This document shows positions 25,951 through 57,202 of a stretch of 64,000 bases of DNA, in pieces. Position numbers and translations under genes: made by a program. The stretch is from Methanoregula formicica SMSP (GTDB lineage Archaea; Halobacteriota; Methanomicrobia; Methanomicrobiales; Methanospirillaceae). The DNA is taken from contig NC_019943.1 in the NCBI RefSeq assembly GCF_000327485.1, forward strand, positions 248,001 to 312,000, in the 5' to 3' direction. The notes beneath the pieces were generated by a model, which saw nothing but the letters and a program-made list of their open reading frames with translations, was not told where the DNA came from and did no database searches. Positions within the stretch are counted from its first letter, which is position 1; the number at the start of each line of letters is the position of its first letter.

Positions 25951-26035
25951 GGTTATCTCTCGGTGTGCCGGCAAAAAAAGTTTCTCCAAGGGAGCCCGCA
26001 AGCCGGACGCTCCCACGGCAGGGGATTTATCCCGG

Positions 26036-27601
26036 TTATGCGGCTGTAGCAGCCGGCTGTGCCTTTCCGGCCTGCACCTGCATGACGACCATGACGATGA
26101 GCGAGATCGGGAGTGCAATCACGATCGGGTCCACCGCGGTCCATGGTGCACCAAGGAGCGTGACCTTGCCGAAGAGTGCCTGGCAGAGGCCCAGAGGTTT
26201 TGCCTCCGCGGCATGGAAGAACGCAGTCCAGACAAACCAGACGACAGCACCGGTAACCATGCTCCACAGCGCTGCTTTTGTCGATGGCGCCTTTGCATAG
26301 ACGCCTACGGCAAAAGCCGGCAGGAAGGCACAGGCGCAGAGCCCCATGAACATGACGGTAGCCCGGGCAATGATGCTGATGGGCATGAGCAGGGCGAGGA
26401 TCGTTGAGAGGACCATCATGATGACGATGCCGGCCTGGTGTGCCTTTAAGGAGAGGGCGCACTCCCTCCCGCGGCCCCAGAGGTCGCAGATCAGGGCAGT
26501 GCCCATGGCATGGTAAAGGGCGGAGAGCGTGGACATGGCTGCCGAGAGGAGTGTCAGCATGAAGATGACAACAAAGATCTCGGGCATGGCCTGGTTGATG
26601 AAGAGCGGCATGATGGCATCGACATTGCCCCCGGCAGCATCGATGGCGATCTTGCCTGAAGTCTGGTAGAAATACACATTGCTGAGTGCTCCTACCGTGA
26701 ACGCGACACCGGTCATCATCAGGATAAACGGCCCGCCGACAAGGACTGCCCGGTTCAGGGACTTGTTGTCCTTTGCCGTCATGAACCGGACCACGAGCTG
26801 TGGCTGAGCGAGTACCCCGATACCCACGCCGAGGACAAGCGTTGTTATGACCGTGAACCAGATCGGCGAGCCGAGTTCCGGCATGGTTGTCCAGCCGGTC
26901 ATGCCCTGGCTTGCAAGTGCCTTGGGTACAAGGTCAGCCATATTGGTGAGGGCTGTCGCCCCGTTAGTCCATCCGCCGACCACCACAAGGGTGAGGGCCA
27001 GCAGGACGGTCATACCGATCAGCATGATGGTGCCCTGGAAGGCATCGGTATACATGACCGCGATGAGGCCCCCGAAGACCACGTAGACCGCGGTGATCAC
27101 GGCAAAGAGGATCAGGGACGTCGTGTATTCGATCCCGAGCGTGGGCTCGATGAACCGTGCCCCGCCGATGAGGATGGCGGCAGTGTACAGCGGCATCGAG
27201 ACAACGATGATGAACCCGGCAATGTACTGGAGGACCGGGGACTTGTAGATCTTGCACATCAGGTCCGGGAACGTGACCGCCGAGAGGCGGTGCCCGATCT
27301 CCCGGGTCTTCTTGCCAAAGAGGACGAACGCGAGCAGGATGCCGACCCCGATATTCAGCACCGTGAGCCAGATCAGGCTCATCCCGAGGTTTGCCGCCTG
27401 TCCCCCGAACCCGATGATCGCGGACGTGGAGATGAACGTTGCACCGTACGAAAGGGCGATGATCACCGGGTGGCTGCACCGTCCGGCAACCAGGTAGTCC
27501 TCGGAGCTTTTCGTCTTCTTGTACCCGAAATAGCCGATGATGAGGGTGGCTGCAAGGTAGATGAGCACCAGCGCCGTCATCGTCAGCGTATTAACTGCCA
27601 T
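26036..27601 (-). CDS. Sodium:solute symporter family transporter
   Basis: A 521-residue secondary transporter of the SSS family with about 13 membrane helices. The N-terminus shows the characteristic GYFGYKKTKSSEDYLVAGR, and further on come FISTSAIIGFGG (Na2 site region) and LLSAAMSTLSALYHAMGT (core helix with Na-coordinating Ser/Thr). Substrates in this family include proline, pantothenate, sugars and acids, and cannot be told from sequence here. The start overlaps the end of a 41-residue small gene upstream, which is its likely accessory subunit. Confidence 0.9.
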   Translation of the reverse strand: MAVNTLTMTALVLIYLAATLIIGYFGYKKTKSSEDYLVAGRCSHPVIIALSYGATFISTSAIIGFGGQAANLGMSLIWLTVLNIGVGILLAFVLFGKKTREIGHRLSAVTFPDLMCKIYKSPVLQYIAGFIIVVSMPLYTAAILIGGARFIEPTLGIEYTTSLILFAVITAVYVVFGGLIAVMYTDAFQGTIMLIGMTVLLALTLVVVGGWTNGATALTNMADLVPKALASQGMTGWTTMPELGSPIWFTVITTLVLGVGIGVLAQPQLVVRFMTAKDNKSLNRAVLVGGPFILMMTGVAFTVGALSNVYFYQTSGKIAIDAAGGNVDAIMPLFINQAMPEIFVVIFMLTLLSAAMSTLSALYHAMGTALICDLWGRGRECALSLKAHQAGIVIMMVLSTILALLMPISIIARATVMFMGLCACAFLPAFAVGVYAKAPSTKAALWSMVTGAVVWFVWTAFFHAAEAKPLGLCQALFGKVTLLGAPWTAVDPIVIALPISLIVMVVMQVQAGKAQPAATAA

Positions 27602-27716
27602 GACCGCCGTCCCCCTCGTTCCAGTACAGCAAACCGTACACGATACACGCCAGGGCTAACCCGATGGACAGCCCATAGCCGAGCACTATCTGTAGATCAG
27701 GAATTCCAAAGAGCAT
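27591..27716 (-). CDS. Symporter small accessory protein
   Basis: A 41-residue single-helix membrane protein beginning MLFGIPDLQIVLGYGLSIGL, then LACIVYGLLYWN and a short polar tail. This is the pattern of the tiny open reading frame that precedes many archaeal SSS transporters: an FGIPDLQ start and a VYG..YWN helix end. Its stop lies inside the transporter gene (11-base overlap), so translation is probably coupled. The role is presumed to be in stability or assembly of the transporter. Too short for most gene finders. Confidence 0.85.
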   Translation of the reverse strand: MLFGIPDLQIVLGYGLSIGLALACIVYGLLYWNEGDGGHGS

Positions 27717-28003
27717 AGAAAAACCTCTGGTAAACTCTTCATCGCGACATTACACGGGGACCAAACAGAACGACGGTCCCCTATCTAAAGAAGAATGCGT
27801 AGCACGGGCTCTTGTGAGAAACAGTGGAATAAGCCCCTTGCAACCTCATTGTTTACCGGATCTTACTCTGAAGACCACAATATATAACGGTTTTCAATTA
27901 TTCTCTGGTGCATACTTCTGTACAATGCTATCCTATAGCACGCTATTGGCCATCCGCGCAAAAGACCATATCGGTAGCGGCTTAACCCTCTTCAGGTACA
28001 ACC

Positions 28004-30148
28004 GTGGCATCCGTCTTCTCCACCCTCCACGAGTCTCTCCGGCAGGTGCTCTCCCAGCGGCTTGGCTGGTTTGAACTCCGCGAGGTGCAGGAACGGGCCT
28101 GTGTCGCCATCTCCGGGGGGAGCGACACGCTGGTCATTGCCCCTACGGCCGGGGGAAAGTCCGAGGCTGCCCTGATCCCGGTGATGGACGCTGTCCTGAA
28201 AAATGGCCAGCCCGGGGTGGCCTGCCTCTATATCGCACCCACAAAAGCGCTGATCAATGATCAGGAAGAGCGGTTCTCTGCATTCTGCCTGCCGACATCG
28301 TTGTCAGTGATGAAATGGCATGGCGATGTCCCCAAAGGGGGGCGGTCATGGAAAGGGGAGCCTCCCCATTTCCTGATGATCACTCCCGAATCGCTTGAGG
28401 TCCTCCTGCAGGAGCGCGAGCTCTCGCAAGACCTAAGGCAGGTACGTTTTGTCATCGTTGACGAGCTCCACGCATTCGTGGAGACCGATCGCGGTGTCCA
28501 TCTCAGGGTGCTGCTCGACCGGCTGGACGAACTGGCCGGGCGGAAGATCCAGCGGATCGGCCTCTCTGCCACGGCCGGGAACCCGCAGGAGATCCTCTCC
28601 TGGCTCTCCGATGGGAGGCAGGGCCAGAAACTGGTTGAGGTAGCCCCGGCACCCAGAGAGAAACACTTCTCGTTCATCATCGAGCCGGACGAGGACCTGC
28701 GGACGAGTGCGCTTGTGCGGGTCGTTACCGGGAGAAAGGCGCTGGTCTTTGTCAATAGCCGGAGCGGTGCCGAGCACCTCATGAAAGCCCTCTCCGGGCG
28801 GGTGCGTAACCTCCATATCCACCACTCGTCACTCTCTCCGGTGATGCGGAGGAAGGCCGAGGAGGCGTTCCTGTCTGAGGACGGGGCCTGCATTGTCTGC
28901 ACGAGCACGCTCGAACTGGGGATCGATATCGGCGACTTGGATGTTGTGGTCCAGGTGGGTCCACCGGATACCGTGTCGTCCTTCCTCCAGCGGATGGGCC
29001 GGAGCGGGAGGCGGGGACGCCCGGCGTTCGTTGTCTTTGTACTGGAAACCCCCTGTCAGCTGCTCTGCAGCTGTGCCATCATCGAATGTGCCATCGACCG
29101 CAGGGTCGAGAACCTGCACCCACCGGAGCAACCCTATAATGTCCTCCTCCAGCAGCTCTTCCTTGCCCTTCAGAAGGGGCGGACTGGCTGGGGAACCCTT
29201 ATGAAAACCCTCCTTGCCCGGCCGGCATTTTCCGGGATCCGGCCGACGGAGCTGGAACGCCTGATTCGGCACCTCGTCGATGAGGGGTTCATTGCAACCG
29301 ACGGCGAGATGCTGATGCCCGGGACCGAGGCGGAGCGGGTGCTGGGGCGATCGAACTGGAAAGACCTGTACTCGGTCATTGCCGGCGGCGGGGAGTACCG
29401 GGCCATGACGCCCGAGGGCGAGGCCGTGGGGAAGCTCGATGCACGTTTTGTCAACAGCCACAGCGATGGCGACGTGACGCTGGGCGGCCAGATCTGGTCG
29501 ATGGTGAAGTGTGACGAAGGCCACAACATTGTCGTTGTTGTTCCGTCTGTCGCTGGTGGGGCCCGCACCTTCTGGAGGGGCAGTGGCGAAGCCGGGTTCT
29601 CCGGCCTCATCTGCGAGCGGGCCGGGGCTATCCGGAAGGAGAGAACAACCCGGCTGCCGCTTGGGGATCCTGAACGGGCCATACTCCACAACGCCCTGCA
29701 AACAATCCCGAAGGAGGTGGACGGGAGCGGTCTCTTTGTGAGAGAAAGGAAGCGGGCCGGAAGGAGGATCGTGGAGGTGTACTCCTTCCACGGCAGCAGG
29801 TTCAACCGCGTCCTTGCACTCCTCCTTGTCCACTGCCTGGGAGAGAAGTCAAGGGTCAGTTCCGGTGATTTCCTTCTCCGCGTGTCGGGTGCAGGCAAAC
29901 AGGATACCATTGCCCGGGTGATCGCTGCACTGGAGGCAGTCCGGGCATTGAGCCCGGGAGAGATTGCGGAGATTCTCCCGGCACCGCAACGGGATGCCTG
30001 GAAATTCGCCGGGCTCCTTTCAGACCATCTCTTCCGGAAGACTGTTCTTCCGGATTATTACCATATTACCGAGTTTAAACAAAGACTCGCGGGGATGGCG
30101 GTTACTGCGCTTCCTCCCTCTGCCCCGGAGCCCGGCACGGGGGAGTGA
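28004..30148 (+). CDS. Lhr-like superfamily 2 DEAD/DEAH-box helicase
   Basis: A 714-residue ATP-dependent helicase. Motifs in order are Walker A APTAGGKS, PTKAL (Ia), TPESLE (Ib), DELH (II), SATAG (III), STLELGIDIGDLD and QRMGRSGRRG (VI). This is the Lhr-type DExH core, followed by a winged-helix-like region and a C-terminal domain (GEYRAMTPEGEAVGKLDARFV) as in Lhr-core proteins. Relatives unwind DNA or RNA-DNA hybrids in repair. The start GTG 28004 is preceded by AGGT. A possible TATA (AATATATAAC) lies near 27879-27888. Exact assignment within the Lhr family is uncertain. Confidence 0.87.
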   Translation: MASVFSTLHESLRQVLSQRLGWFELREVQERACVAISGGSDTLVIAPTAGGKSEAALIPVMDAVLKNGQPGVACLYIAPTKALINDQEERFSAFCLPTSLSVMKWHGDVPKGGRSWKGEPPHFLMITPESLEVLLQERELSQDLRQVRFVIVDELHAFVETDRGVHLRVLLDRLDELAGRKIQRIGLSATAGNPQEILSWLSDGRQGQKLVEVAPAPREKHFSFIIEPDEDLRTSALVRVVTGRKALVFVNSRSGAEHLMKALSGRVRNLHIHHSSLSPVMRRKAEEAFLSEDGACIVCTSTLELGIDIGDLDVVVQVGPPDTVSSFLQRMGRSGRRGRPAFVVFVLETPCQLLCSCAIIECAIDRRVENLHPPEQPYNVLLQQLFLALQKGRTGWGTLMKTLLARPAFSGIRPTELERLIRHLVDEGFIATDGEMLMPGTEAERVLGRSNWKDLYSVIAGGGEYRAMTPEGEAVGKLDARFVNSHSDGDVTLGGQIWSMVKCDEGHNIVVVVPSVAGGARTFWRGSGEAGFSGLICERAGAIRKERTTRLPLGDPERAILHNALQTIPKEVDGSGLFVRERKRAGRRIVEVYSFHGSRFNRVLALLLVHCLGEKSRVSSGDFLLRVSGAGKQDTIARVIAALEAVRALSPGEIAEILPAPQRDAWKFAGLLSDHLFRKTVLPDYYHITEFKQRLAGMAVTALPPSAPEPGTGE

Positions 30149-30208
30149 TCCGCTCCCCTTTCCAAGAAGGACGGATCCCTTTTTGTGATACCCCGGAAAA
30201 CGGTTCTT

Positions 30209-30646
30209 ATGCAAAAATGGCTCGCCCTTATCACCCTTGTTGCGGTCCTGGTGCTTGTCGGGGGGTGCGTTCAGGAAACTCCCGCGGAACCGTCTTCAAT
30301 GCCGGTTCCGGCAACAACCGCCAAACAGGTAACCACTCAGAAAACCCCGCTGCCGGTCGCAACCATCATCCCCCCCACGCCAACGCTCACGCCAACAGAG
30401 CTCACCGTCTGGATCTACGACACCGGTTTCTCACCCAAAGAAGTCACGGTTAAAGTGGGATCGCAGGTCCGGTGGGTCAATGCAGACGAGGGACCCCACC
30501 GGGTCAGCTTTGTCACGGGCGGGTTCACCGCGTTCCTGCTTGCCCCCGGCCAGTCCTCAAGCCAGAAATTCACCCGGCCGGGCGTGTATGAGTACAGCTG
30601 CATTATTGCCCCTGCGATGCAGGGACGGGTTACCGTAGTGGAATAG
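30209..30646 (+). CDS. Cupredoxin-like lipoprotein with a changed copper site
   Basis: A 145-residue exported protein. Lipobox LVLVGGC near residues 14-20, a Thr/Pro linker, then a plastocyanin/amicyanin-type beta barrel (DTGFSPKEVTVKVGSQVRWVNAD). The first His ligand is present in GPHRVSF and the Cys in YSCIIAPAMQG, with the Met four residues beyond the usual His position. Where relatives have CxxHxxM this protein has CxxAxxM, so the second His is Ala. Type 1 copper binding may be lost or altered. I chose ATG 30209 because it begins the signal peptide. It stands alone between the helicase and a small membrane protein. Confidence 0.82.
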   Translation: MQKWLALITLVAVLVLVGGCVQETPAEPSSMPVPATTAKQVTTQKTPLPVATIIPPTPTLTPTELTVWIYDTGFSPKEVTVKVGSQVRWVNADEGPHRVSFVTGGFTAFLLAPGQSSSQKFTRPGVYEYSCIIAPAMQGRVTVVE

Positions 30647-30809
30647 AACGATCCCCGGGCAATCCTGCAATCCCTTTTTTCATTTTTTTCGAGCGATACG
30701 CAGAAGCAACCGGAATACCGGGCCTGATGGCAATTACCGTAAGCGTTGTCACAAAAAAACGTCACAAAGGCGCCATTGGCAGGTAAAAACGGATCCGGAG
30801 CCGCCGGGG

Positions 30810-31013
30810 TTACAGCCCGACAAGGCGGAGGATGGCACCCACGAGGATACCGAACATAGAGGTTGACGCCGAGAGCATCCCGAGCAGGATATACCCGGCG
30901 ATTGCCCCGATCTTCAGGGGCATGTAGGTGCGGTTCAGGTTCAGCCTGCGGATGGCGCGGAATGCCTTTGCGTCGGCGGATATGGGGGGTTTGTTCTGTT
31001 TGATCCGGAGCAT
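30810..31013 (-). CDS. Small hypothetical membrane protein
   Basis: A 67-residue protein, MLRIKQNKPPISADAKAFRA then a basic segment and one or two hydrophobic helices (PLKIGAIAGYILLGMLSASTSMFGILVGAILRLVGL). AGGTGA upstream of ATG 31013 supports this start over the longer frame. GC-rich codon use matches the core genes. It is the last core gene before the AT-rich integrated element. I do not recognise a family. Confidence 0.6.
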   Translation of the reverse strand: MLRIKQNKPPISADAKAFRAIRRLNLNRTYMPLKIGAIAGYILLGMLSASTSMFGILVGAILRLVGL

Positions 31014-31459
31014 CCTTTGTTCACCTGTTCCCGGCCGCTGCACTGTTCCCTGAGGGCAGCATCCTGTATTGATCATATAATATGAACATTCGATATTTAT
31101 TGCTTTGGAACGGGTAATAAAAGAGAAAATCAATTATATGGATTTTTTACAAAAAATTCAACCAATCTGGGAATATTTTTCAGAATTTTCAGGAGAAGAG
31201 ATCCGCATCACTGTACCACCCCGCGAACGGGAACGGAAAGGCAGGATGAAGACACGTGACAGACGCCGAGGGGGTGCGTTAACAATAATGTTCAACTCTC
31301 AACTAAAGAAGATTTGAACGTTTCTAAATACGCCGAGGGGGAGATTTTATGATCGGAGTTCAAATCACCCCCAGAAATCAGCCGAACAGAGCCCATTTTA
31401 AGTCACGTTCTCATCTCGCGCGTTTTCAGAAGTATGGTTATCTAATAATGATTTTCGGA
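31014..31459. other. Intergenic region containing the distal attachment site
   Basis: The region turns AT-rich near 31070. It holds two copies of the tRNA-Ser 3' end motif: GACGCCGAGGGGG at 31262-31274 and ACGCCGAGGGGGAGA at 31330-31344. GATTTGAAC at 31311-31319 and GTTCAAATC at 31358-31366 form 9-bp inverted arms flanking the second core. No convincing gene is seen here. Confidence 0.7.
31330..31344 (-). other. attachment site, distal copy (tRNA-Ser 3' end fragment)
   Basis: Fifteen bases identical to 37352-37366, which spans the last T-stem bases, the 3' acceptor strand and the discriminator of tRNA-Ser. Its neighbours on both sides are unrelated to tRNA, so this is a displaced 3' fragment left by integration. 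Confidence 0.8.
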
Positions 31460-32410
31460 TCAAGAGAAATCCGCGAGTGTTGCAATTTTCGATTCTGGCT
31501 TTCGGATTGCTTCGAGATGTTGCGGGAGATCAAGGGGCGAATCCAAGGATATTGCACCTAGTGATAGTAATTTTTTATACCCTCTGAACGCTCTTTCATC
31601 TGATTTATCCGCTCGGACAATGAAAACCGTTTTTCCATGTTTAAATGCGGTTTCAGCCTGGCGAATCGACCCCCCATGTTCGTCACTCTCGATCACAATA
31701 ACAGCATTTGAGAGTGCACTCGTAATGCGGTTTCTCTCAATATATCGGCCCTTATGCATTTTAGTGAGATTAGTGATCTCGCTGATAAGGGCACCGGAAA
31801 AAACAATCTTATTGGCGAGATCTCTGTTCTCTGTTGGAACAATGTTATCGATATCCCCAGGTAGGATTGCTATTGTTTTTCCGCCACATTCAAGCGCTGT
31901 TTGATGTGCATAGGTATCAGTTCCTAGAGCGAGGCCACTGACAATAACAAATCCAAGGTCAACGCATGTTTTAACGATCTCTCGAACATTTTCTATCCCT
32001 TTGGGACTGATTGTTCTCGATCCTACCACACCTATTGCAGGCTTTGTAAGGCACGAGGGATCCCCTTTTTGATAAATTATGAATGGGGGATCTGAAATAT
32101 TGATGAGTTTTTTTGGATACGCATTATCATTGATTGAAATGATACGAACATCCTCTCTCGTGTACCCATTGATGGCATCGACATAGAAGTCAATTAGTCT
32201 CTTTTTCCGGATATTCTCGGATTTTTCAATAATGGGTCCGATATCCGGATAACGGTAAACACAATGAACATAATTGACGAATGTGTTGTCAAATAACTCA
32301 TGCAGGAATACGCTATCCTGGAAATATTTGACATACTCCATTTTTTTTAACGACTGTGTATCATTGAGACAAGCAAGAAAAGCTATCTCTTTGATAGAAT
32401 TTTTAGTCAT
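31460..32410 (-). CDS. DprA/Smf-family protein, ShosA-like
   Basis: A 316-residue protein with the DprA Rossmann-like core: GVVGSRTISPKGIENVREIV, SGLALGTDTYAHQTALECGG, TIAILPGDIDNIVPTENRDL, GALISE and RYIERNRITSALSNAVIVIE. The N-terminal 110 residues are helical and not clearly conserved. I chose ATG 32410 because GGAGAT precedes it and it overlaps the stop of the phosphoribosyltransferase gene by 8 bases. In bacteria DprA loads RecA on incoming single-stranded DNA, but a DprA-like protein coupled to a PRTase is the architecture of the ShosTA system, where it serves as the antitoxin. That role is inferred here. AT-rich, unlike the flanking core genes. Confidence 0.85.
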   Translation of the reverse strand: MTKNSIKEIAFLACLNDTQSLKKMEYVKYFQDSVFLHELFDNTFVNYVHCVYRYPDIGPIIEKSENIRKKRLIDFYVDAINGYTREDVRIISINDNAYPKKLINISDPPFIIYQKGDPSCLTKPAIGVVGSRTISPKGIENVREIVKTCVDLGFVIVSGLALGTDTYAHQTALECGGKTIAILPGDIDNIVPTENRDLANKIVFSGALISEITNLTKMHKGRYIERNRITSALSNAVIVIESDEHGGSIRQAETAFKHGKTVFIVRADKSDERAFRGYKKLLSLGAISLDSPLDLPQHLEAIRKPESKIATLADFS

Positions 32411-33101
32411 TATATCTCCGTAATGTTTCCATGTGTCTCCGGTTGACCATTCTCCCAATTACAAGTGATTTGATAGTACTTGCACCATTCGCTTTAAGCA
32501 CTCTAGCGCATTCTCGTTTTGTAACCATGTCAATACACGTATCATCTATGAGGAGAACAGACTCATCACTCTCGAAGACATAATTGCATCCAATCTTTCC
32601 TGCAATTTCAGCCTCTTTTTCACGGTGATCATGGATGTCATGCATTGATCGATAGGGCTGTTGTTTGTAGAGAACGTCCACGAATGGCTTCCCATAATGA
32701 GCAGCAATACCTTGTGCCAAGAGGCCAGATTGGTTGTATCCCCCATCCTGCGTACCTCTCATCACTGGGATTACCACATCTAATTCTTGAAGGTCTGGAT
32801 ATTGAACATCAATTGCATAATACATACATTCCAAGAGAAGTGGGGCAAGCCGTTTGTCTCTTTTAAAGCGACGGATCTCATTACTGAGAACATCATCGGG
32901 CTTTTCGTCCTCATAGTAATATTTTCCAAACGCTCTGACTTGAACGATAGGATGGAGTTTATCGGAACAATCTTTACAAGCTCCACAATAAGGATGAGAT
33001 AATGCAAACGAATCAGGAATAGGATTCCCACAAATCTCACAATATGGTGGGTGAAGAATTTCTAGTTCAGTCCCATCAGAGCGTGTAAACACCTGACACA
33101 T
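32403..33101 (-). CDS. ComF-like phosphoribosyltransferase, ShosT-like
   Basis: A 232-residue protein. The N-terminal part has a zinc-finger-like set CEICGNP...CGACKDC (about residues 21-45), as in ComF. The C-terminal part is a type I PRTase fold with ELDVVIPVMRG and the PRPP-binding segment VLLIDDTCIDMVTKREC. The usual TTG of the PRPP loop is replaced by CID, so catalysis may differ. It is first in a two-gene operon with the DprA-like gene. GAGG lies 7 bases before the start, and ATATATAG about 33160 is a plausible TATA. By analogy with ShosTA this would be the toxin. Confidence 0.8.
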   Translation of the reverse strand: MCQVFTRSDGTELEILHPPYCEICGNPIPDSFALSHPYCGACKDCSDKLHPIVQVRAFGKYYYEDEKPDDVLSNEIRRFKRDKRLAPLLLECMYYAIDVQYPDLQELDVVIPVMRGTQDGGYNQSGLLAQGIAAHYGKPFVDVLYKQQPYRSMHDIHDHREKEAEIAGKIGCNYVFESDESVLLIDDTCIDMVTKRECARVLKANGASTIKSLVIGRMVNRRHMETLRRYND

Positions 33102-33304
33102 TGACTGCCCTCATCTCTCGGATGTATCGCACTTCTTTCAATGTTGTAGTATTAATCAAGGCACTATATATTCGATACCGCATGGAGTGAAAGTGGTGTG
33201 CGATCATACAAGTAGTGTTAAGATCACCGCCAGTCTTGTTGCGAGTCGAAAATAAATTAATTAATACAAGTTAGGAGTATAGGTTACATGATCTTGCAAC
33301 GATG

Positions 33305-33318
33305 ATGCAACGTTGCAT
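33305..33318. promoter_or_regulatory. 14-bp palindromic operator candidate
   Basis: ATGCAACGTTGCAT is a perfect palindrome 12-18 bases before the start region of the winged-helix gene. A related half-site TTGCAAC lies at 33294-33300. An AT-rich TATA-like block sits at about 33250-33265, so the palindrome falls just downstream of the likely start of transcription. Autoregulation by the following gene is the simplest reading. Confidence 0.55.
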
Positions 33319-33337
33319 TGTTGATTAGGTGGTAATG

Positions 33338-34312
33338 ATGGTTGGATCAAAAACAGGTTTACCAAAAATCACACATGTGGCAAAATTGGTGAATACACAA
33401 TTTTCCGAAACGGATACCAAGATCATTAATTATCTTTTTGAGAAAAAACAAGCCTCCTATAATGAGATAGCGGAAGCCTTGGAAATAAGTAAGCCAACTG
33501 TAAGTAGGCGAGTCCGCCTAATTCAGAAAGAGGGTTTGGTGATCTCCTTTAAATCAAACAAGGAGTCTGTAATTAAATGGATTGGGGGAACACCCGCGCT
33601 TGATGCAGAATTGGAGTCCTCTACAACGAGTCATATAACTGCATCAATGCTTGCTGAAAACTATGATCAGCTCATTTGCGATCCGTTCTCACCATTTTCT
33701 CTTGTTTTTGAAAATCACTGTTGGGAAGTCATGCAAAATCTGAAAGAAGGGCTTAATGATCTCGAATTAGGACAAATAATCGGAAAAGCCATCTCACTTG
33801 ATACTATTCGAAGAATAATGGTCACTTGTGCCACCCATAACATTATTGAAATTAAAACCATCCGAGCTCCGGCGGGTAATGATATTACGACCTTGTTCGA
33901 ACCCCTTTATAAAATCGAGAAAGTCAACCGTCAATATATTCAATATTTGACATTGATTAGAGGACTGGCCTCCGCTATGAGTTATAAGATGGAAAAGAAA
34001 GCATCAAATAATACCATTCATCCGTATGCACCAATTCTTGATATCAATGAACAAATATTCGCAACCTATTCTGATGTCATCACCTCTACACGAAATAACA
34101 ACGACCGGGAAATTCTCTTAAAAGCATTAGCGAATTATGATTTTGCTCCCGATCTCGATAGGTTATTCAAACATGAAAACTGGCGAATAAAAGTAAAGGA
34201 TGCCCATTTCGTCTCATTGGACTCTAAGAGTGATAATCTCGTTATCTCGAAAGAATTTTTCAATGACTGCACAAAAAAAGTCATCAAAGGAGTGAGAGAG
34301 TTTGACAAATAA
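33338..34312 (+). CDS. Winged-helix protein of the integrated element
   Basis: A 324-residue AT-rich gene. Residues about 20-75 form a clear MarR/Lrp-like winged helix (DTKIINYLFEKKQASYNEIAEALEISKPTVSRRVRLIQKEGLV). The rest is helical with no motif I know, although TIRRIMVTCATHNIIEIKTI could be a second degenerate winged helix. I chose ATG 33338 because AGGTGG lies 5 bases upstream; in-frame GTG 33329 and ATG 33335 are alternatives. It overlaps the next gene by 11 bases. A regulator or a replication/partition factor of the element are both possible. Confidence 0.7.
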   Translation: MVGSKTGLPKITHVAKLVNTQFSETDTKIINYLFEKKQASYNEIAEALEISKPTVSRRVRLIQKEGLVISFKSNKESVIKWIGGTPALDAELESSTTSHITASMLAENYDQLICDPFSPFSLVFENHCWEVMQNLKEGLNDLELGQIIGKAISLDTIRRIMVTCATHNIIEIKTIRAPAGNDITTLFEPLYKIEKVNRQYIQYLTLIRGLASAMSYKMEKKASNNTIHPYAPILDINEQIFATYSDVITSTRNNNDREILLKALANYDFAPDLDRLFKHENWRIKVKDAHFVSLDSKSDNLVISKEFFNDCTKKVIKGVREFDK

Positions 34313-35654
34313 TTTTTATGACCCTTATTTGTCAGATCCTCTTGTTAGGCAAATTCGTCCGAATACTCTCTCTTCTTTAAACGATGTTACATTAAACAAT
34401 GTCATAAGAGCCGAAGATCAAATGATCCGTGGGGTTCGAGAATTTGTATTGTCTAACCCTTTGCGAAATTATGAGAGACATGCAGGACATTTTAGTTCTG
34501 CTGTGAGTCTTGCCCGTGCTTTAGCATTTTTAGATGTTGCACATTCTACACGTTCTTTGAGTGAGATTAAGGAACGAGTCTGGAATGTTACACCAACAAC
34601 AAGTCAACGGGCGAGTTTTAACACTAGTTTGCGGGATACGGTAATTCCACATTTAATTAATGATGGACTTATCCAACTTGACGCATCTGGACAGAGAATT
34701 TTGCAAGTAATGCCCTATCCCATCAGCAGCAAATTGTACGTTTTTAATAATTTTCTTAATAATGCAAAATTATTCGAAGAGCAACAGAATCATTTTGATA
34801 TTATCAACCGTGTCCAAGATTTTCCAGAGCTTACTGATACGCTTGAGGCAAATTCCCCACGTCGTTATCTCTTCAGTCGGGATTATAATGCTTTGGAAAG
34901 TGTGGACGTAATTCGTTCCCATAGTATTTCGGGTAGGACATTCACATTTGCCAAGTCGTATATTACAGGTGATAAGTCCTTGGATACTTGGAAGACGGTC
35001 CTTGACACAACGGATGTAGTTCGGGTCGGATTAAGAGATTTATTAGTATTACAGGGAGAGTGTGGTGGATTTATCACACAGAATGAAATAGCTGAAGCAA
35101 CTGGGAAGAATCACCGATTGGTGAACCGGCTAATAAGACATATGGATAATATGGGCTTAGCTCAAAAAACTCGGACACTTCAGATGGAAGATGCACTTAG
35201 TAGACCTACAAGTGGCACTCTTCTAAACATGAATTATTATGAATATAATAACGCAGCAGCAACATTATGTCTCGTCAGAAGTGTTCCCGAATCAATTGGA
35301 ATTCTTGTAAAACTGGAAAAACAGGGAACGCTTACTGAAGAGGAGTTAATTGATGAATATGAGATCCCTGTAGTTCAACAAGTTAGGAATACTCTCGATT
35401 TAATTGGCCTTATCAGTAAGGATGCCCAATCTGAAGGAATTATTCAAATTGCACCAAATAAAAACGGTAAAGAATTCCTCTCTGATGTATTAACGGTTGC
35501 GGCAAAATCAAGGAAAGTTACTGATCCTGAGTATGACATTAAAAATAAATTAGCCTCTATGTTCGAAAAAATTGATGAACAAAAATTGGAGAGAGAAGCA
35601 ATCCAAGTTAAGCTTGATTTCTTTAATGCTGAAGCAGAGGAACTAAGGAAATAA
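34302..35654 (+). CDS. Multi-winged-helix protein of unknown function
   Basis: A 450-residue AT-rich gene starting with TTG at 34302, inside the end of the previous gene; GGAGTG lies upstream and no ATG occurs in frame for 40 codons. Helix-turn-helix-like segments appear at about residues 255-290 (TQNEIAEATGKNHRLVNRLIRHMDNMGLAQK) and 325-365 (TEEELIDEYEIPVVQQVRNTLDLIGLISK), and a coiled-coil tail closes it. It resembles no family I recognise. Tight overlap implies it works with its upstream neighbour, perhaps as a two-part DNA-binding complex. It ends 12 bases inside the convergent integrase gene. Confidence 0.65.
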   Translation: MTNNFYDPYLSDPLVRQIRPNTLSSLNDVTLNNVIRAEDQMIRGVREFVLSNPLRNYERHAGHFSSAVSLARALAFLDVAHSTRSLSEIKERVWNVTPTTSQRASFNTSLRDTVIPHLINDGLIQLDASGQRILQVMPYPISSKLYVFNNFLNNAKLFEEQQNHFDIINRVQDFPELTDTLEANSPRRYLFSRDYNALESVDVIRSHSISGRTFTFAKSYITGDKSLDTWKTVLDTTDVVRVGLRDLLVLQGECGGFITQNEIAEATGKNHRLVNRLIRHMDNMGLAQKTRTLQMEDALSRPTSGTLLNMNYYEYNNAAATLCLVRSVPESIGILVKLEKQGTLTEEELIDEYEIPVVQQVRNTLDLIGLISKDAQSEGIIQIAPNKNGKEFLSDVLTVAAKSRKVTDPEYDIKNKLASMFEKIDEQKLEREAIQVKLDFFNAEAEELRK

Positions 35655-36779
35655 CTTCTCCTCCTTTTTCTTATCATTTGATCCATCCGGTCGTTTGAGT
35701 TCTCTCCCACATTTTCCACAATAATTAAACATTGGAGGATTGATCTCCCAACAATATTTACACTGTCGTGGAGCGAGAGTCCGATCCTCAGTCAAAGGTT
35801 TCAATTTTATCCCCTCCATCTGCCGTACGATTTCGCTGATATCTTTATTCGAAATGTGGCTGTAGGTCTGAAGCATCTCGGTGTCCGTACTCCCCCACAT
35901 CATCAGTTTGATGACATCTTCACGAACTCCCATCTTGATGAGGTGCGTGATCCTGGAATGGCGGAAGATATGGAGTGTGACCTTTTTCATAATCCCTGAC
36001 TGTTGACCGATAATCCGGACTTGCCTAGATAGGACATTGTGAGAAAGTGGATTCCCATCATTATTCAGAAAAACCAGATTTTTTCCAGAGGGATTGCCAG
36101 GGTAGATTCGTTTCCAGGCATTGAGATATTTCTTACTTTTAATGAGCCTGATGTATCTTGGAATCCGCGTCTTCAAATCCGTCCGGACAGCTAGCCCATA
36201 TTGATCGAATGAAACCTGGCTCCAGGTCAGAGTACCGATCTCCTTCGCCCGAAATCCCCCCTCATACAACATGCAAACAACCGCGCGGTACATTGGGTTT
36301 TTGGTAGTCTTGACCATCTTGTTGATCTCAGCTTTAGTCAGGATCTCATCAGGGGAATGGGTTACTCTCTGAACGGGAGGAGGTTTGATTCTCTTGATGC
36401 CCGCAGGGGTAACAGAAACGTGCGTGTACTGGTTCTCGATTAACCAAGTATAGAATCGTTTAATCAGGGTAATGTGATCGTGAAGTGTGTTTTGTTTGTA
36501 CGGTTCACCTCGCTGATTTTTCGCTATCCTGGCATCACCGATTGCCTGAACAAGATCAGTCATAGTAGCATCACGATATTGTGGGAGGAACCTTCGCCAA
36601 AATACCAAGCTGAAAATCAGATTGTTGCGACGGGAGAGAGAAATGCCTTGGAGTGCAACGAGCTCCCCGACAAATTCCAAAATTATCTTTGCATCATTCT
36701 CTGAAAGCTCGTTTCTTTCAATAGCGGATTGAATGGATCTATCTCCGTACTCAGCTTTTCCATAATGAAAATCAGTCAT
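35643..36779 (-). CDS. Tyrosine recombinase (integrase) with C-terminal zinc ribbon
   Basis: A 378-residue site-specific recombinase. The N-terminal SAM-like core-binding domain (about residues 30-125) is followed by the catalytic domain with YEGGFRAKEIGTL (first Arg), HIFRHSRITHL (His-x-x-Arg) and a final MLQTYSHI (nucleophile Tyr). The C-terminus adds a four-Cys ribbon, CKYCWEINPP...CGKCGREL. Archaeal XerC/D-like integrases of this type act on tRNA genes. It lies 570 bases from the tRNA-Ser attachment site. The gene is complete, so the element may still be excisable. Confidence 0.93.
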   Translation of the reverse strand: MTDFHYGKAEYGDRSIQSAIERNELSENDAKIILEFVGELVALQGISLSRRNNLIFSLVFWRRFLPQYRDATMTDLVQAIGDARIAKNQRGEPYKQNTLHDHITLIKRFYTWLIENQYTHVSVTPAGIKRIKPPPVQRVTHSPDEILTKAEINKMVKTTKNPMYRAVVCMLYEGGFRAKEIGTLTWSQVSFDQYGLAVRTDLKTRIPRYIRLIKSKKYLNAWKRIYPGNPSGKNLVFLNNDGNPLSHNVLSRQVRIIGQQSGIMKKVTLHIFRHSRITHLIKMGVREDVIKLMMWGSTDTEMLQTYSHISNKDISEIVRQMEGIKLKPLTEDRTLAPRQCKYCWEINPPMFNYCGKCGRELKRPDGSNDKKKEEKLFP

Positions 36780-36848
36780 TAGCAGTTTATCTCTAGTATA
36801 ACTACAGAGTCACAAACACACATCAATTTTGCCAAAAAAGGTTAATTT

Positions 36849-37091
36849 GTGGCTACAATTCGTGGAAAACCAAAGAAACAGATTGGTTACAAAATTCCCA
36901 CTGATTTGCAAAAGAAGATTGATTCCTTAATTGCAAAAGAGGAGTTCTCGAACCAGGCTGATATCATCACAGCATCGTTGCGATCTTATTTCGACAAGCG
37001 CGATTTTGAAGACGTTGTTGAAAGTAAGGTAGTCAGTTTCTTGAAATCTGAAGACGGCCTGAAACTCCTGCATGAATTAGCTAACAAGTAA
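36849..37091 (+). CDS. Ribbon-helix-helix-like small DNA-binding protein
   Basis: An 80-residue protein starting at GTG 36849. A basic N-terminus (RGKPKKQIGYKIPTDLQKKIDSLIAKEEFSNQADIITASLRSYF) has the strand-helix-helix pattern of CopG/MetJ-type regulators, followed by a short acidic helical tail. AAGG occurs upstream. It is divergent from the integrase with about 70 bases between, a common place for an excision or copy-number regulator. Family assignment is by pattern only. Confidence 0.65.
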   Translation: MATIRGKPKKQIGYKIPTDLQKKIDSLIAKEEFSNQADIITASLRSYFDKRDFEDVVESKVVSFLKSEDGLKLLHELANK

Positions 37092-37352
37092 CTCCTCTTC
37101 TCGCGCGCTTTCTGCTTTGTGTGTGTTGAAAAACACCATTTTTAGTTCAACGCTGAACAGGGGATTTGAATGTCAGAGTTCAAATCTTTTCGAAAAATAC
37201 GCAATATTTTAGACTTTTTAACAAAATAAGGCAAATTTGAGGAGATCAGTCAATTCACCAATTATTTAAAAATCAGTCCATAAAACCATTCTGAAGGTAA
37301 ATTAAAGCCCTTTTTAGAAAAGGAGCGCATAATGGGGAGATTTGGTTTGTGA
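37092..37352. other. Non-coding right arm of the element with inverted TTCAA motifs
   Basis: No gene. GATTTGAA at 37163-37170 and TTCAAATC at 37179-37186 form a perfect 8-bp inverted repeat with an 8-base spacer. GTTCA/TGAAC arms occur at 37145-37158. The same GATTTGAAC/GTTCAAATC words flank the distal attachment core at 31330. They may be recombinase or accessory-factor arm sites. Confidence 0.5.
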
Positions 37353-37437
37353 CGCCGAGGGGGAGAGTTGAACTCCCGAGGCGCGAAGCGCCAGTAGCTT
37401 TCGAGGCTACCGCCTTTCCGGGCTAGACTACCTCGGC
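37353..37437 (-). tRNA. tRNA-Ser (anticodon CGA)
   Basis: Acceptor stem GCCGAGG (from 37437) pairs with CCTCGGC (to 37354), with discriminator G at 37353. Anticodon stem GTAGC/GCTAC holds loop CTCGAAA, giving CGA. A long variable arm (GGCGC TTC GCGCC) is typical of tRNA-Ser, and the T arm is GGGAG TTCAACT CTCCC. No CCA is encoded. Its 3' end is the attachment site of the neighbouring element and is intact. Confidence 0.95.
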
Positions 37438-37512
37438 ACCCGGTTCTCTACTTTTTCTCATCGATCCGTCTAATAGTTATCTGAATGAAAAAAGGGGATT
37501 TGGTGGTTCCCG

Positions 37513-39111
37513 TTACATATGGGGAGCAGCACCGGCCTTGCCACCCTGCTGGGTGATCATCATGTCATCGACACGGATGAGCATGATCGCGGTTTCGGAT
37601 GCGCTCTGGATGGACTGGCGCTTGGAACGGAGCGGCTCGATGACGCCTTCGCTGAGCATGTCAACGACCTTGCCCTGGTATACGTTCAGGCCGGCGTTCT
37701 TCTTGCCCTTTGCATGGGCGTTCTTGAGTTCCACAATCTTGTCAATGGGGTTGAAGCCGGAGTTCTCGGCAAGTGCCCGCGGGATGGCCTCAAACGCGGT
37801 TGCATAGCCCTCGATAGCGAGCTGGACGCGGCCGCCAACGGTCTGGGCATAGTCGCGGATCTTCATGAGCATCTCGGTCTCGACTGCTGCTCCGCCAACA
37901 ACATAGGTTCCGTCTTCCATGGCATCCATGACAACACGGGTCCCGTCAACAACCGCCCGCTCGAGCTCGTCAAGCAGGTAGTCGCTCGTCCCCCGGAGGA
38001 GAATGGTGATGGTCTTGGGGTTCTTGCAGCCGGAGATCCGCGTGACGTTCCCTTCGGTGTCTTCCTCCACGAGGTCTGCGGTGCCGAGGTCCTTTGCGGT
38101 CAGGGCGTCCGGCTTTGCAACAATGTTTGCGTTGAGTGCCCGGGCTGCATACTTGAGGTCCTTCTCGGGGACATCTTCAATGGCAAACACACCTGCCTTT
38201 GCCAGGTAGAACTGTGCAATATCGGAGATGCCTTTCTGGCAGAGGAGGACGTTTGCGCCGCTGTCGATGACGAGGTCGGCAAGTTTCTTCAACGCCCCGC
38301 GCTCCTGCTCGGAGAATGCGTTCACCTGCTCTGCGGTGGAGATCTTAATCTTTGCCTTGACCTGAGTCTTTGTTATCTCGAGTGGGGACGCGATGAGGGC
38401 AACCTTTGCCTTCGGGATCTTCTTTGGCATCCCGTCGTTGACACGGACCTTGTCAATCACAACGCCACGGATCAGTTCGGCATCGTCCATTGCCTGGCCC
38501 TTTTGCTTCTTTATCATGACATCTTCTTCGTCAACAACGATCTTCCCGTTCGCCTTCTCGGCAACGGCCATGACCGCATCGACGATGATACCGTCGAGCT
38601 TGTCCTTGACCTGCTCAACCGACTTGCCGGTGATTGCCGTGTCGGTTATCTTCAGGAGGGTCTTCCGGTCGGTTGCATCGACCTTGTGGGAGAGGCCGGT
38701 TGTTATCTCAAGGGCCTTCTCCATGCCCATGCGGTATCCCTGGGCAATGACGGTTGGGTGGATGCCCTGTTCGAGCATGATCTCGGCCTGCTCCATCAGC
38801 GCGCCGACCAGGATGATCGCGGTGGTGGTCCCGTCACCGACTTCGTCGTCCTGGGTCCGGGCGACCTCGATGACCATCTTTGCGCCGGGATGCTGAACAG
38901 CGATCTCGCTTAAGATCGTTGCCCCGTCATTCGTTATGACGATGTCACCTGTGGAGCCGACGAGCATCTTGTCCATGCCCCGGGGGCCAAGCGTCGACTT
39001 CACGGCGCCGGCAATTGCCTTTGCGGCCGCAATATTCGAGCGCTGGGCTTCTTTCCCGGTATTACGCTCCACATTTTCTTTTAAAATGATAATTGGCTGT
39101 CCAGATAGCAT
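37513..39111 (-). CDS. Thermosome subunit (group II chaperonin)
   Basis: A 532-residue subunit of the archaeal ATP-dependent protein-folding double ring. Hallmarks are [14 protein letters not shown], the nucleotide motif [20 protein letters not shown], and [19 protein letters not shown] near the end. The C-terminus is short ([10 protein letters not shown]) rather than a long GGM repeat. GGAGG lies 7 bases before ATG 39111, with a TATA box at 39151-39160. It is the first core gene to the right of the integrated element. Confidence 0.98.
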
Positions 39112-39150
39112 AATGGATCCTCCGATGTTGTAAAAGGTGGAATTGAACTT

Positions 39151-39162
39151 CTATATAAATTG
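39151..39162 (-). promoter_or_regulatory. TATA box of the thermosome gene
   Basis: Reads CAATTTATATAG on the minus strand, about 40 bases upstream of the start codon. This leaves a leader of roughly 15 to 20 bases containing the GGAGG site. Confidence 0.6.
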
Positions 39163-39190
39163 TATGGTGTAAATCCGGAACAGGAATGGG

Positions 39191-39796
39191 CTACACCGGA
39201 GATACCTTGTAGAGTGAACAGACCGGCACGCCATCAATATCCCTGATGCCGCGCTTGTCAAAGATGACCCAGATCGCAACAGGGGTCGCATTGTGCTTCT
39301 TGAGGTACCGGACGACTTCCTTCATGGTATTGCCGGAGGTGATGACATCGTCGACAATGATGCAGCGCTGGCCAGTAACGGGTGCGAAGTTCCCGCTGAT
39401 TGACCCCGTGGGTCTCTCGCTCTGGCTCTGCTTTGCCGGGTGGTAGATTGCGAGCTGGGCCGCCTCCTGGACTGCAATCAGGGTGGCAAGCGGGATGCCC
39501 GAGAGAGCGATCCCCACGATCACGTCCGCAACCGGTGAACCCGCAGTCGTCTCCTTCTGGGACTGGTAGTACCGGTTCAGGAGCATGATTGCGGTCTCTT
39601 CAAGCATGGGGGCATGGCTGGAGACTGCTGTCCAGTCGATATGGACGTCTTTTGGGGCGGACGTTCCCTTGGCCTGCGTGAGGAGCCATGTCACCGTTTC
39701 CATGGAAAGGGAGAGTTCATCTGCAATCTGACCCGGGCTGTGCCCTTCCGAGAGAAGCACCTTGGCTTTCCCAATCAGATCGTCTAACGAAGACAT
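39191..39796 (-). CDS. GfcR-like regulator: HTH plus orotate phosphoribosyltransferase-like domain
   Basis: A 201-residue protein with an N-terminal helix-turn-helix ([22 protein letters not shown], about residues 18-40) fused to a PRTase domain with the PRPP motif [17 protein letters not shown]. This is the archaeal PyrE-like regulator family (GfcR in haloarchaea), which senses a metabolite rather than making nucleotides. A TATA box (ACTTAAATA, near 39818-39828) about 26 bases before ATG 39796 predicts a leaderless transcript. It overlaps the tail of the upstream Nob1 gene. Regulatory targets are unknown here. Confidence 0.85.
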
Positions 39797-39817
39797 GCAC
39801 AAAAGCTCTTCTGGCAG

Positions 39818-40273
39818 CTATTTAAGTTTTCTTTTAATTGCTGCACCGCAGACCGGGCAATCGCCGTCGTGACTGTAATAGCGGCCGCATCCCGTGCACC
39901 GGTACTTCCAGCGGACCGGGCGTGCTTTTCTCTGAAAAATGGCGTGTGTCCTGACACCGAGCACCCCCGCAACATTCTGGATGGCAAAATCATCGGTGTA
40001 CAGCATGGCTCCGAGCTCCTTTGCAAGGGCGAGGAGATCGCGGTCGGTACCGGAGATCACGCCGCTGTCCCGGCTCTTCTCCGCTGCCCGGTCCACAGCC
40101 TGGAGACTCGTCCGGGCCGGAGAGACAACGGTAAGCCCCGCTGTGCACAGTTTCTCGAAGTTCCCTTTTGCCCGGATATCCACGAGTTCATCGCAGACGG
40201 ACGGTGTTGTGAAGAGGTCTCCCTCTAACGGGATATCAGAAAAGAAGACACTGGCATCAAGGACAGCCTTCAT
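39818..40273 (-). CDS. nob1: rRNA maturation endoribonuclease Nob1
   Basis: A 151-residue enzyme that trims the 3' end of small-subunit rRNA. A PIN domain starts MKAVLDASVFFSD with acidic residues in TPSVCDELVD, SGTDRDLLALAKEL and YTDDFAIQNVA. A zinc ribbon follows, YRCTGCGRYYSHDGDCPVCG, near the C-terminus. This PIN plus ribbon order and length match archaeal Nob1. The ATG at 40273 starts the PIN domain cleanly. It lies 50 bases downstream of the PRPP synthase gene on the same strand. Confidence 0.93.
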   Translation of the reverse strand: MKAVLDASVFFSDIPLEGDLFTTPSVCDELVDIRAKGNFEKLCTAGLTVVSPARTSLQAVDRAAEKSRDSGVISGTDRDLLALAKELGAMLYTDDFAIQNVAGVLGVRTHAIFQRKARPVRWKYRCTGCGRYYSHDGDCPVCGAAIKRKLK

Positions 40274-40323
40274 AGAGTGGGGGTCCGCCAGAACAGGAAG
40301 GGGATCATACACGCTGGCATGGC

Positions 40324-41172
40324 TCAGGGCGTTCGTACCGCCGCTGCAATGGTTCCGGCAGCCGATACCCTGCTGCAGCCCCGCTCGATCGTGTCGCTGC
40401 TGATGACATCGCGGACCCCGGCAGCCATGAGCCGGGCATAGGCGCCCCCGGTCAGGACCCCGTGGACACAGGCAGCATAGACATCGGTTGCTCCCTGCTG
40501 GTAGAGCATGCCCGTCGCCGTTGCGATGGTGCCACCGGTCGAGATGATATCGTCGACGATGACGACCGGGCGGGAGGCCGCACAGACGTTCTTTGGTGCC
40601 ATACGGACCTCGACGCCGGAAAGCCGCGTCTTGTCCAGGTGGTCGTATTCCCACCCGCCGGTTGCCGCGACCTGCCCGGCAAACGCAAGGGCGCCGTCGT
40701 CCGGTGCCAGGATAAGGGGATTGTTCAGGCCCAGTGTCCCGACGTAGGCCCCGATCTCCGCTGCAATGGAGATGTTCCGCGCCGGCACAGTGAAGTGTTC
40801 CAGCACCGCCGGGTCGTGGATGTTGACAGTGATGACTTCCGCCACTCCGCGGCTGAGCGCTTTTGCAACGGCACGTGCCGAGAGGGGTTCTCCCTTTTTG
40901 AACTGCTTGTCCTGGCGCGCATAGGCCATGTAGGGGAGCACGAGACGTGTACGGGAGGATTCACAGGCATCAGCAAGGAGCATCAGCTGGACGAGTACAT
41001 CGTTGTCCACAACGCTTGCAACGATCAGCGTCTCATCGTCGGGATCGCCTGCCAAAAGATACTGCTCGCCATCGGGAAACCGGGAAAAGGCGACACTTGC
41101 AACCGGAACTTTCAGCGCCCGTGCAACGCGGGCACCGAGCACCTGCGACCGTTCTGTACACATCACTTTCAT
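40324..41172 (-). CDS. prs: Ribose-phosphate pyrophosphokinase (PRPP synthase)
   Basis: A 282-residue enzyme making PRPP from ribose 5-phosphate and ATP for nucleotide, histidine and tryptophan synthesis. Motifs are FPDGEQYL, PYMAYARQDKQFKKGEPLSARAVA (ATP-binding flexible loop), VNIHDPAVLEHF and the PRPP loop VVIVDDIISTGGTIATA. It is on the short side, as typical for archaeal class III-like enzymes. I chose ATG 41172, which begins the conserved first strand; an in-frame codon at 41223 would lie near the TATA (GTTTATC, about 41230). Confidence 0.95.
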   Translation of the reverse strand: MKVMCTERSQVLGARVARALKVPVASVAFSRFPDGEQYLLAGDPDDETLIVASVVDNDVLVQLMLLADACESSRTRLVLPYMAYARQDKQFKKGEPLSARAVAKALSRGVAEVITVNIHDPAVLEHFTVPARNISIAAEIGAYVGTLGLNNPLILAPDDGALAFAGQVAATGGWEYDHLDKTRLSGVEVRMAPKNVCAASRPVVIVDDIISTGGTIATATGMLYQQGATDVYAACVHGVLTGGAYARLMAAGVRDVISSDTIERGCSRVSAAGTIAAAVRTP

Positions 41173-41404
41173 GGAACCGTTCCCCGCCCCGGTGCCTGCC
41201 CGGCGCTTATCAACCAAGTACATGGAAGATAAACCCTATTGTAGTTTTCCCACTCGGTGTCAGGATGGAGGGTGGATGCTGATTGAAGGGTGAATATACC
41301 CAGGCCCTGAAGGTCCCGCCATCCTGCCGCGTGATCAGCTGAAAGTACTTAAACTTGCATGAGACATTGTATATGAAAATCCATCCGTAGAGGGCATCAT
41401 CGTC

Positions 41405-43378
41405 ATGGAAAGTGCACCAGAACAACCACTCCCGGAAGAGCCGGTACAACCGGAAGCTGCGGCTCCCGAGTTGTCCCCTTCCCCGGCAACCGCGACAGCG
41501 GCAACCCCGGAGGGCGGAGTTGCGACATCATCGCAGATCGAAGTCCCTGCATCGTTAATCGACCAGGTGATCGGCCAGGAGCGGGCAGTAGAGGTCATCC
41601 GGAAAGCAGCGATCCAGCGCCGGCACGTGATGATGATCGGGAGCCCCGGTACCGGTAAGTCGATGCTTGCAAAGGCGATGGCCGAACTCCTGCCCAAGGA
41701 GGAGCTGCAGGACATCCTCGTGTACCCGAATTCCGATGACTCGAATAACCCGGTCATCCGGACTGTTGCCGGGGGAAGGGGCAAGCAGATCGTTGCTGCC
41801 CACAAGGCCGAAGCGAAGAAGAAGTCCCAGTTCCGGCAGACCCTTATGATGCTCCTGATGCTCGGTATTGCCGGGTACGCCATCATCACCATGCAGCTCC
41901 TGATGGGGCTGATTGCCGGGGCATTCGTCTTCATGGCCCTGCGGTACTCTACTCCAAGGGAAGAGGCGATGGTGCCCAAACTCCTTGTCTCGAACGACAC
42001 CAAGAACATCGCCCCCTTCATTGACGGCACAGGATCCCATGCCGGCGCCCTGTTGGGCGATGTCCGGCACGATCCCTTCCAGAGCGGCGGTCTTGAGACC
42101 CCGGCGCATGACCGGGTCGAGGCCGGTGCAATCCACCGGTCGAACGGCGGCGTCCTCTTCATCGACGAGATCAACACGCTGGACCCCCACTCCCAGCAGA
42201 ACCTGCTCACGGCCCTGCAGGAAGGGGAGTTCCCCATCACCGGGCAGAGCGAGCGGTCGAGCGGTGCCATGGTCAGGACGGAGCCGGTCCCCTGTAAGTT
42301 CGTGATGGTTGCAGCGGGCAATATCGACGCCATCCAGGGAATGCACCCCGCACTCCGGTCCCGTATCCGGGGGTACGGGTACGAGGTCTACATGGCCGAG
42401 AGCATGGAGGACACGCCCGAGAACCGGCAGAAGTATGTCCGGTTCATCGCCCAGGAGGTCAAGAACGATGGCAAGATCCCGCACTTCGACCAGAGCGGCA
42501 TCGATGAGATCATCCGGGAAGCCCGCCGGCGATCGAACCGGAAAGGCCACCTTACCCTCAAACTCCGTGATATGGGTGGTTTGATCCGGGTTGCTGGTGA
42601 TATTGCCCGTCAGGAAAACGCTCCGATAACCACGGCAGCACATGTCATCACGGCAAAGAAGACCGCCCGGTCGATCGAGGACCAGGTCTCGGATGAAGTC
42701 ACCCGGCACCTGCGCGAATACGAGATGACGGTCGTGGAGGGCACCCGCATCGGCCGCGTGAACGGCCTTGCGGTAACCGGCAGCGATGCCGGTTCGGTAC
42801 TGCCCATCATGGCAGAGGTTACTCCGGCAATAGGAAAGGAAGGTGGCGAAGTAATTGCCACCGGGATGCTCAAGGAGATTGCCCAGGAATCGATCAAGAA
42901 TGTCAGCGCACTCCTGAAAAAATTCACCGGCAAGGATGTCAAGAACATCGATATCCACATCCAGTTCATCGGCACCTACATGGGTGTGGAGGGTGACTCG
43001 GCCTCGGTGAGTGTTGCGACCGCTGTTGTCAGCGCCATCGAAGGTATCCCGGTACGTCAGGACCTTGCGATGACCGGTTCGCTTTCGGTGCGGGGCGATG
43101 TGCTCCCAATCGGTGGTGTCACCTACAAGATCGAAGCAGCAGCGAAGGCAGGGATCAAGACGGTTCTCATTCCCCGGATGAATGTTGGCGATGTGTTGAT
43201 CGAGGAAAAGTACAAACCGCTCGTTACTATTATCCCTGTCGACACGATCGATGATGTTCTCAAATACGCTCTCGTACCGGAGAACTCGGAGAGTTTCCTC
43301 ACCAAGCTCAAAAAGATGGCGATGCGGTCCACTGCAATGATCGCAGAAGCGCCGGAGATCAATCCGACAACGGCCTGA
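41405..43378 (+). CDS. lonB: Archaeal membrane-anchored ATP-dependent protease LonB
   Basis: A 657-residue AAA+ protease. A Pro/Ala-rich N-terminus precedes [15 protein letters not shown] and Walker A GSPGTGKS (residues 79-86). Two membrane helices (about 143-175) lie between Walker A and Walker B, as in archaeal LonB, then [13 protein letters not shown]. The protease domain carries GDSAS with the catalytic Ser at 532 and the partner Lys in [14 protein letters not shown]. It degrades misfolded and membrane proteins. It is followed after 5 bases by tldD, suggesting a proteolysis operon with tldE. Confidence 0.97.
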
Positions 43379-56066: not shown

Positions 56067-56276
56067 TCACAAAGCAGTGGTTGCATAATATTCTCTATTA
56101 AGCTGGCTTGGGGTTATCGTTTTGAAAAAAATCACCCCTGTTTTGACGGTTCTGTTGCGTTATCGGGACTTGCACTTCGTCCTCATTGGAAACAGGCTAT
56201 TATTTAAACGTCCCGTAAAGGCAACAGGTTCATTGTGTATTATTATAAAATATACCGTGCGATACAGGTGGGATGA

Positions 56277-57068: not shown

Positions 57069-57202
57069 ATCTCGTTTTTTCACCGGATTACATGAAAAAA
57101 ATATGCATTTATTCTGATGGTGTGATATAATGGTTTATCAAACGATAATCCAATCAAAAAACGAAATCAAATATACAATGATTCATAATGACGGTGGGAT
57201 AA

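Follow-up and report, generated by a model that had tools for sequence, protein, structure and literature searches.

An overlapping pair of winged-helix genes with a predicted operator in an archaeal integrative element

CapK+CapS, CapH+CapP, BrxR/CapW and RptR are repressors that lie beside changing defence operons, and closely spaced repeated sites have been reported for CapS and RptR (PMC13373217, PMC9122601, PMC12255303). For archaea, little is known of how mobile elements and defence cassettes are controlled. Two overlapping genes, WH1 and WH2, in the window (the 64-kb stretch of Methanoregula formicica DNA analysed here) resemble the described systems in that they would form a small repressor module located by varied defence cassettes, with palindromic sites in its own leader. 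As for CapS and RptR, the sites in this leader are closely spaced and repeated. Judged from sequence, the pair appears to represent a small, undescribed family of archaeal regulators with a predicted operator.

The gene pair and the element that carries it

WH1 and WH2 are co-oriented reading frames that overlap by 11 bases (34302-34312), and each start is preceded by a ribosome-binding site (AGGTGG before the ATG of WH1 and AAGGAG before the TTG of WH2), which bears out the two frames proposed in an earlier note on this DNA (Table 1). A GTG at 33329 provides an alternative WH1 start that would yield 327 aa; in alignment, the start sites of both genes are consistent with those of three homologues. 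These homologues are full-length WH1-WH2 pairs in the same gene order, 41-49% identical to the window pair, and are found in a Methanoregula MAG (G015; 47% for WH1 and 49% for WH2), in a genome of the same phylum but another class (G451; 41% for both) and in an 18,977-bp tailed-virus contig from IMG/VR (L015; 47% and 43%). Comparison of these sequences shows that the two genes have been conserved as a unit at four unrelated sites. WH1 and WH2 have no detectable homology to each other (hhalign probability 1.5%).

Table 1. Features of the locus and of the G015 homologue. Positions are window coordinates unless residues or a contig are named.
Feature	Position	Strand	Detail
Possible BRE/TATA-type promoter of the pair	33246-33263	+	CGAAAATAAATTAATTAA; suggested by sequence inspection
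Proposed operator	33295-33318	.	half-site TGCAACG (33295-33301), then ATGCAACGTTGCAT (33305-33318); half-site spacing 11 bp
WH1	33338-34312	+	324 aa, ATG start; conserved in 4 loci
N-terminal winged helix of WH1	residues ~23-81		recognition-helix segment SKPTVSRRVRL
WH2	34302-35654	+	450 aa, TTG start
Winged-helix-like segments of WH2	residues about 65-136, 239-292, 312-383		profile search and predicted models
DprA-like protein, ShosA/PsyrA type, antitoxin-like	31460-32458	-	Pfam DNA_processg_A 8.9e-60; PADLOC ShosA 1.4e-69
PRTase, ComF/PsyrT/ShosT-like	32403-33101	-	zinc-ribbon-like N-terminus; overlaps dprA; NCBIfam comF 7e-8
Tyrosine integrase	35643-36779	-	Pfam Phage_integrase 1.8e-22; HxxR and Y motifs in translation
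Small CopG/RHH-like DNA-binding protein	36849-37091	+	80 aa; PHROG CopG-like repressor 2.9e-5; Pfam RHH_1 only 0.19
tRNA-Ser(CGA)	37351-37438	-
att copy, tRNA-Ser(CGA) 3' end	37351-37363	.	GACGCCGAGGGGG
att copy, far element end	31262-31274	.	GACGCCGAGGGGG; empty-site join in L066
Genes beside the G015 pair	L008:9711-12497		divergent DUF3644 gene (PDC-S19, 2.5e-136), possible zinc-finger gene, Ymh/HEPN-like gene

The earlier note had counted at least three winged-helix segments and had found the proteins to match no family. One winged helix is certain: residues 23-70 of WH1 match Pfam HTH_24 (E=7.6e-10), in disagreement with the second claim, and the local AlphaFold pLDDT of this N-terminal domain is mostly 73-92. 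One is borderline (WH2 249-291; HTH_24 E=0.003, MarR_2 E=0.009), and outside this segment neither WH2 nor the remainder of WH1 matches a Pfam, NCBIfam, PHROG or PADLOC family, as the note had stated. Three more, WH2 65-136 and 312-383 and WH1 about 128-196, have winged-helix-like secondary structure in low-confidence AlphaFold (AF2) models, which were built from an input of three sequences and are poor (mean pLDDT 52-55; 55 and 52.5), with better local confidence at the WH1 N-terminal domain and at the WH2 segments 65-136 and 312-383. A count of three or more is thus plausible, with one segment sure. The C-terminal domain of WH1 is conserved and helical. Fold searches by domain, a check proposed in the note, returned matches that tell only of a winged helix; the WH1 N-terminal domain resembles AspA (Foldseek TMt 0.6-0.67), a generic winged-helix match. 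Whole-model matches to RPC62, TFIIIC and XPR1 are meaningless.

The pair resides in a 6.09-kb element (31262-37350) inserted at the 3' end of tRNA-Ser(CGA), across which the GC content falls from about 58% to 40%. Sequences matching window positions 26002-31280 and 37350-42000 are contiguous in a sister genome (G031; 88-90% identical, with a 20-bp overlap at the tRNA end), and this empty site defines the element. Together with the tyrosine integrase and the direct repeats of the tRNA 3' end (a 13-bp att core), the empty site in a relative is what is found for tRNA-integrated elements. The recognizable cargo consists of DprA, the PRTase, WH1, WH2, the integrase and the small RHH-like protein; Rfam returned only the tRNA in this region. 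Inside the element ends are two further tRNA-3'-end-like copies (31330-31366 and 37150-37186, 73% alike); they may serve the integrase as arm sites or be left over from a tandem insertion in the past. A second low-GC stretch of the window (53001-58000, 39-48%) is possibly another acquired region.

Operator and recognition helix

The leader of WH1 contains the exact palindrome ATGCAACGTTGCAT, ending 19 nt before the start codon, with a half-site 11 bp upstream of this intact palindrome. Allowing up to 2 mismatches, ATGCAACGTTGCAT matches nowhere else in the window (0.19 expected), and TGCAACGTTGCA has a single exact occurrence in the 2.82-Mb genome. Taken alone, ATGCAACGTTGCAT is modest evidence: in dinucleotide shuffling of the 100-nt leader, 178 of 20,000 sequences (about 0.9%) contained a perfect palindrome of at least 14 bp. 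It becomes convincing because it is conserved in the distant viral homologue. The viral leader holds TGCAACGTTGCGCAACGTTGCA, a perfect 22-bp palindrome that ends 18 nt before the aligned start and whose length was reached in 0 of 20,000 shuffles of that leader. This site is composed of two overlapping palindromes 10 bp apart, and both the window and the viral sites look like side-by-side dimer sites. The two leaders have the 12-mer ATGCAACGTTGC in common (22/20,000 shuffle pairs, position ignored). Fourfold-degenerate sites of the window and viral pairs are only 33-34% identical, indicating that the operator has been held by selection and not by recent common descent.

The shared operator is absent from the G015 and G451 leaders, and neither shows a clear operator; G451 has GAAACGTTTC, a palindrome length met in 15% of shuffles. 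The recognition helix of WH1 follows the same division. The segment in the virus, SKPTISRKVRS, shares 8/11 residues with the window segment, the two pairs without the operator share 2-3/11 with the window, and every comparison except window against virus gives 1-3/11 identical residues. The rest of WH1 is similarly alike in all comparisons (44-51% identical). Recognition-helix similarity therefore tracks operator sharing, as expected if the helix reads the palindrome, although with four known members this is one contrast of a single pair against the rest and not a regression.

Autoregulation through the palindrome, which the earlier note had suggested, is supported by the retention of the operator in the virus at nearly the same position, by its tracking of the recognition helix and by its uniqueness in the genome. 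The evidence supports predicted autoregulation via the WH1 N-terminal winged helix, and we regard autorepression of WH1-WH2 as highly probable. The operator would sit just downstream of the transcription start. We propose that WH1 dimers grip TGCAACG half-sites with the N-terminal winged helix, and that two adjacent dimers, spaced by one helical turn and placed immediately downstream of the promoter, would block transcription of WH1-WH2. WH2 may bind WH1, since the genes overlap and are equally conserved, and would then act as a co-repressor, a sensor or a second DNA-binding arm. A signal, for example infection or DNA damage, would loosen the complex. Within the element, the PRTase, integrase and RHH promoters yielded no further operator, which leaves control of anything beyond the pair itself, including the integrase and PRTase/DprA, putative.

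Surroundings of the pairs and possible roles

The four pairs have no gene in common in the DNA read around each. The G015 pair sits in a Methanoregula defence island, divergent to the DUF3644 gene, and a type III restriction-modification system is next along after the DUF3644 and HEPN-like genes. This site (L008:9711-12497) also encodes a possible zinc-finger protein, along with a Ymh/HEPN-like one resembling Aga_HEPN and PD-Lambda-3_B. The G451 pair lies in a 3.38-kb insertion between potassium-transport genes, and sister genomes are without this insertion. In the virus, the pair lies at the end of the tail genes and adjoins an insertion-sequence transposase; just upstream of viral WH1, at about 1371-1544, there is a 57-aa AbrB/MazE-looking frame with no Pfam match. 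A shared transposon was considered from the transposase divergently upstream of the viral pair and a remnant in G451; the two are only 28% alike, which does not support it. Two of the 4 pairs lie divergently beside a defence-type cassette, PRTase/DprA in the window and PDC-S19/DUF3644 with the type III system in G015.

Searches of 232 genomes of the order, of 393 drawn from the phylum and of 51 and 58 near G451 gave no further WH2, and the first pattern scans of IMG/VR and GTDB returned nothing. Plasmid matches of WH1 (H1-H10) are generic, extending little if at all beyond the N-terminal winged helix, and hits in G007 and G018 are partial, covering a single winged helix.

The favoured reading is a dedicated repressor complex of mobile elements. 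The pair is probably a DNA-binding complex of two winged-helix subunits that represses its own genes and is carried by archaeal mobile elements and defence islands; that this complex serves chiefly as a regulator of the element or its cargo is more tentative, a question we see as close to evenly balanced. Its most likely purpose would be to keep the pair, and probably the neighbouring cargo or element, quiet until triggered. Between members, the DNA specificity would have shifted without a matching change elsewhere in the protein, as in immunity-type repressors.

Alternatively, the pair could be a toxin-antitoxin or stand-alone defence module moved as cargo, with WH1 as an autoregulating antitoxin and WH2 as the larger effector. 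Such a module would fit the overlapping two-gene operon, in which the DNA-binding gene leads and an operator lies close to its start. It would also fit the rare, scattered occurrence of the pair (a defence island, a virus, an integrase element) without a common partner gene. WH2, however, has no recognizable catalytic domain in Pfam, NCBIfam, PHROG or PADLOC profile searches, is predicted in the low-confidence model to be mostly winged-helix or helical, and is matched by no PADLOC model, and we consider this role rather unlikely.

The dedicated repressor complex has a more ambitious form, which we judge unlikely: a new immunity-type archaeal switch, in which a hetero-complex that has as many as five winged helices and is common to viruses, integrative elements and defence islands would diversify its DNA specificity through joint change of one recognition helix and its operator, and would either arm defence genes nearby or silence elements related to its own.

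A replication or maintenance (Rep or partition) module, whose operator would also serve as an initiator or centromere site, is improbable. In favour of this role, palindrome binding and autoregulation are features of winged-helix Rep proteins and of AspA-type centromere proteins, and nothing else in the 6-kb element is a candidate replication gene. pNOB8 AspA is itself a winged helix with a weak sequence and structure match to WH1, but it is ~90 aa and works with ParB/ParA, neither of which is present in the element. Profile searches gave no Rep_3, Rep-Arvir (DUF7845) or ParA match, the element has no iteron arrays, and WH2 of the window and of the virus has no homologue among PLSDB plasmids or INPHARED phages. 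The pair is also kept at the chromosomal places in G015 and G451, where no integrase was found alongside. The homologue survey that the earlier note had called for therefore did not turn up plasmid replication proteins only, the result it had named as settling the role. Its proposal of a control or maintenance core is compatible with the data as regards control, the pair being inside a proven integrative element; for maintenance, no plasmid replication-type homologue was found.

Defence by DprA and a PRTase (ShosTA/PsyrTA) has been described (PMC9122126). Both kinds of protein are encoded by the neighbouring cassette (31460-33101), an overlapping two-gene operon whose PRTase has PADLOC matches to PsyrT (3.9e-9) and ShosT (1.2e-3); the WH pair is not part of that system. 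By its gene content, PRTase/DprA is a separate ShosTA/PsyrTA-like cassette. A further 11 Methanomicrobiales genomes carry it, in each case with DprA and with a PRTase 62-67% identical, and none has the WH pair in the roughly 1.5 kb read on either side. Around the three other WH pairs, the sequence read contains neither PRTase nor DprA. This indicates that the two modules are independent cargo. The PRTase frame is broken in one cassette copy (G135). A role as DNA-binding arm of the PRTase/DprA system, as the earlier note had proposed, or as its dedicated regulator is very improbable on these distributions and with no operator copy near the PRTase start, despite the 236-bp intergenic region shared by the divergent neighbours.

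Relation to known regulators

The N-terminal winged helix of WH1 is like that of Lrp/AsnC-, MarR- and TrmB-type archaeal regulators, and it scores 31.2 bits as HTH_AsnC-type against a cut-off of 27. Lrp/AsnC proteins are ~150 aa with a C-terminal RAM/AsnC ligand domain, whereas no RAM or other effector domain was found in the 324 aa of WH1, which falls far below every NCBIfam equivalog cut-off (best 34 vs 250).

The pair also differs from CapK+CapS, CapH+CapP, BrxR/CapW and RptR in being archaeal and in consisting of two proteins with several predicted winged-helix segments, and its control of neighbours is putative. Pfam and NCBIfam searches found no WYL domain of the BrxR/CapW kind, no GHKL kinase or STAS domain as in CapK+CapS, and no peptidase domain. 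The predicted operator, the precise boundary of the element and a natural specificity switch, with helix and operator changing in step between members, open both autoregulation and control of the neighbouring cassette to direct test. The pair would be functionally analogous to the repressors that accompany varied defence operons, but the defining domains of those families are absent.
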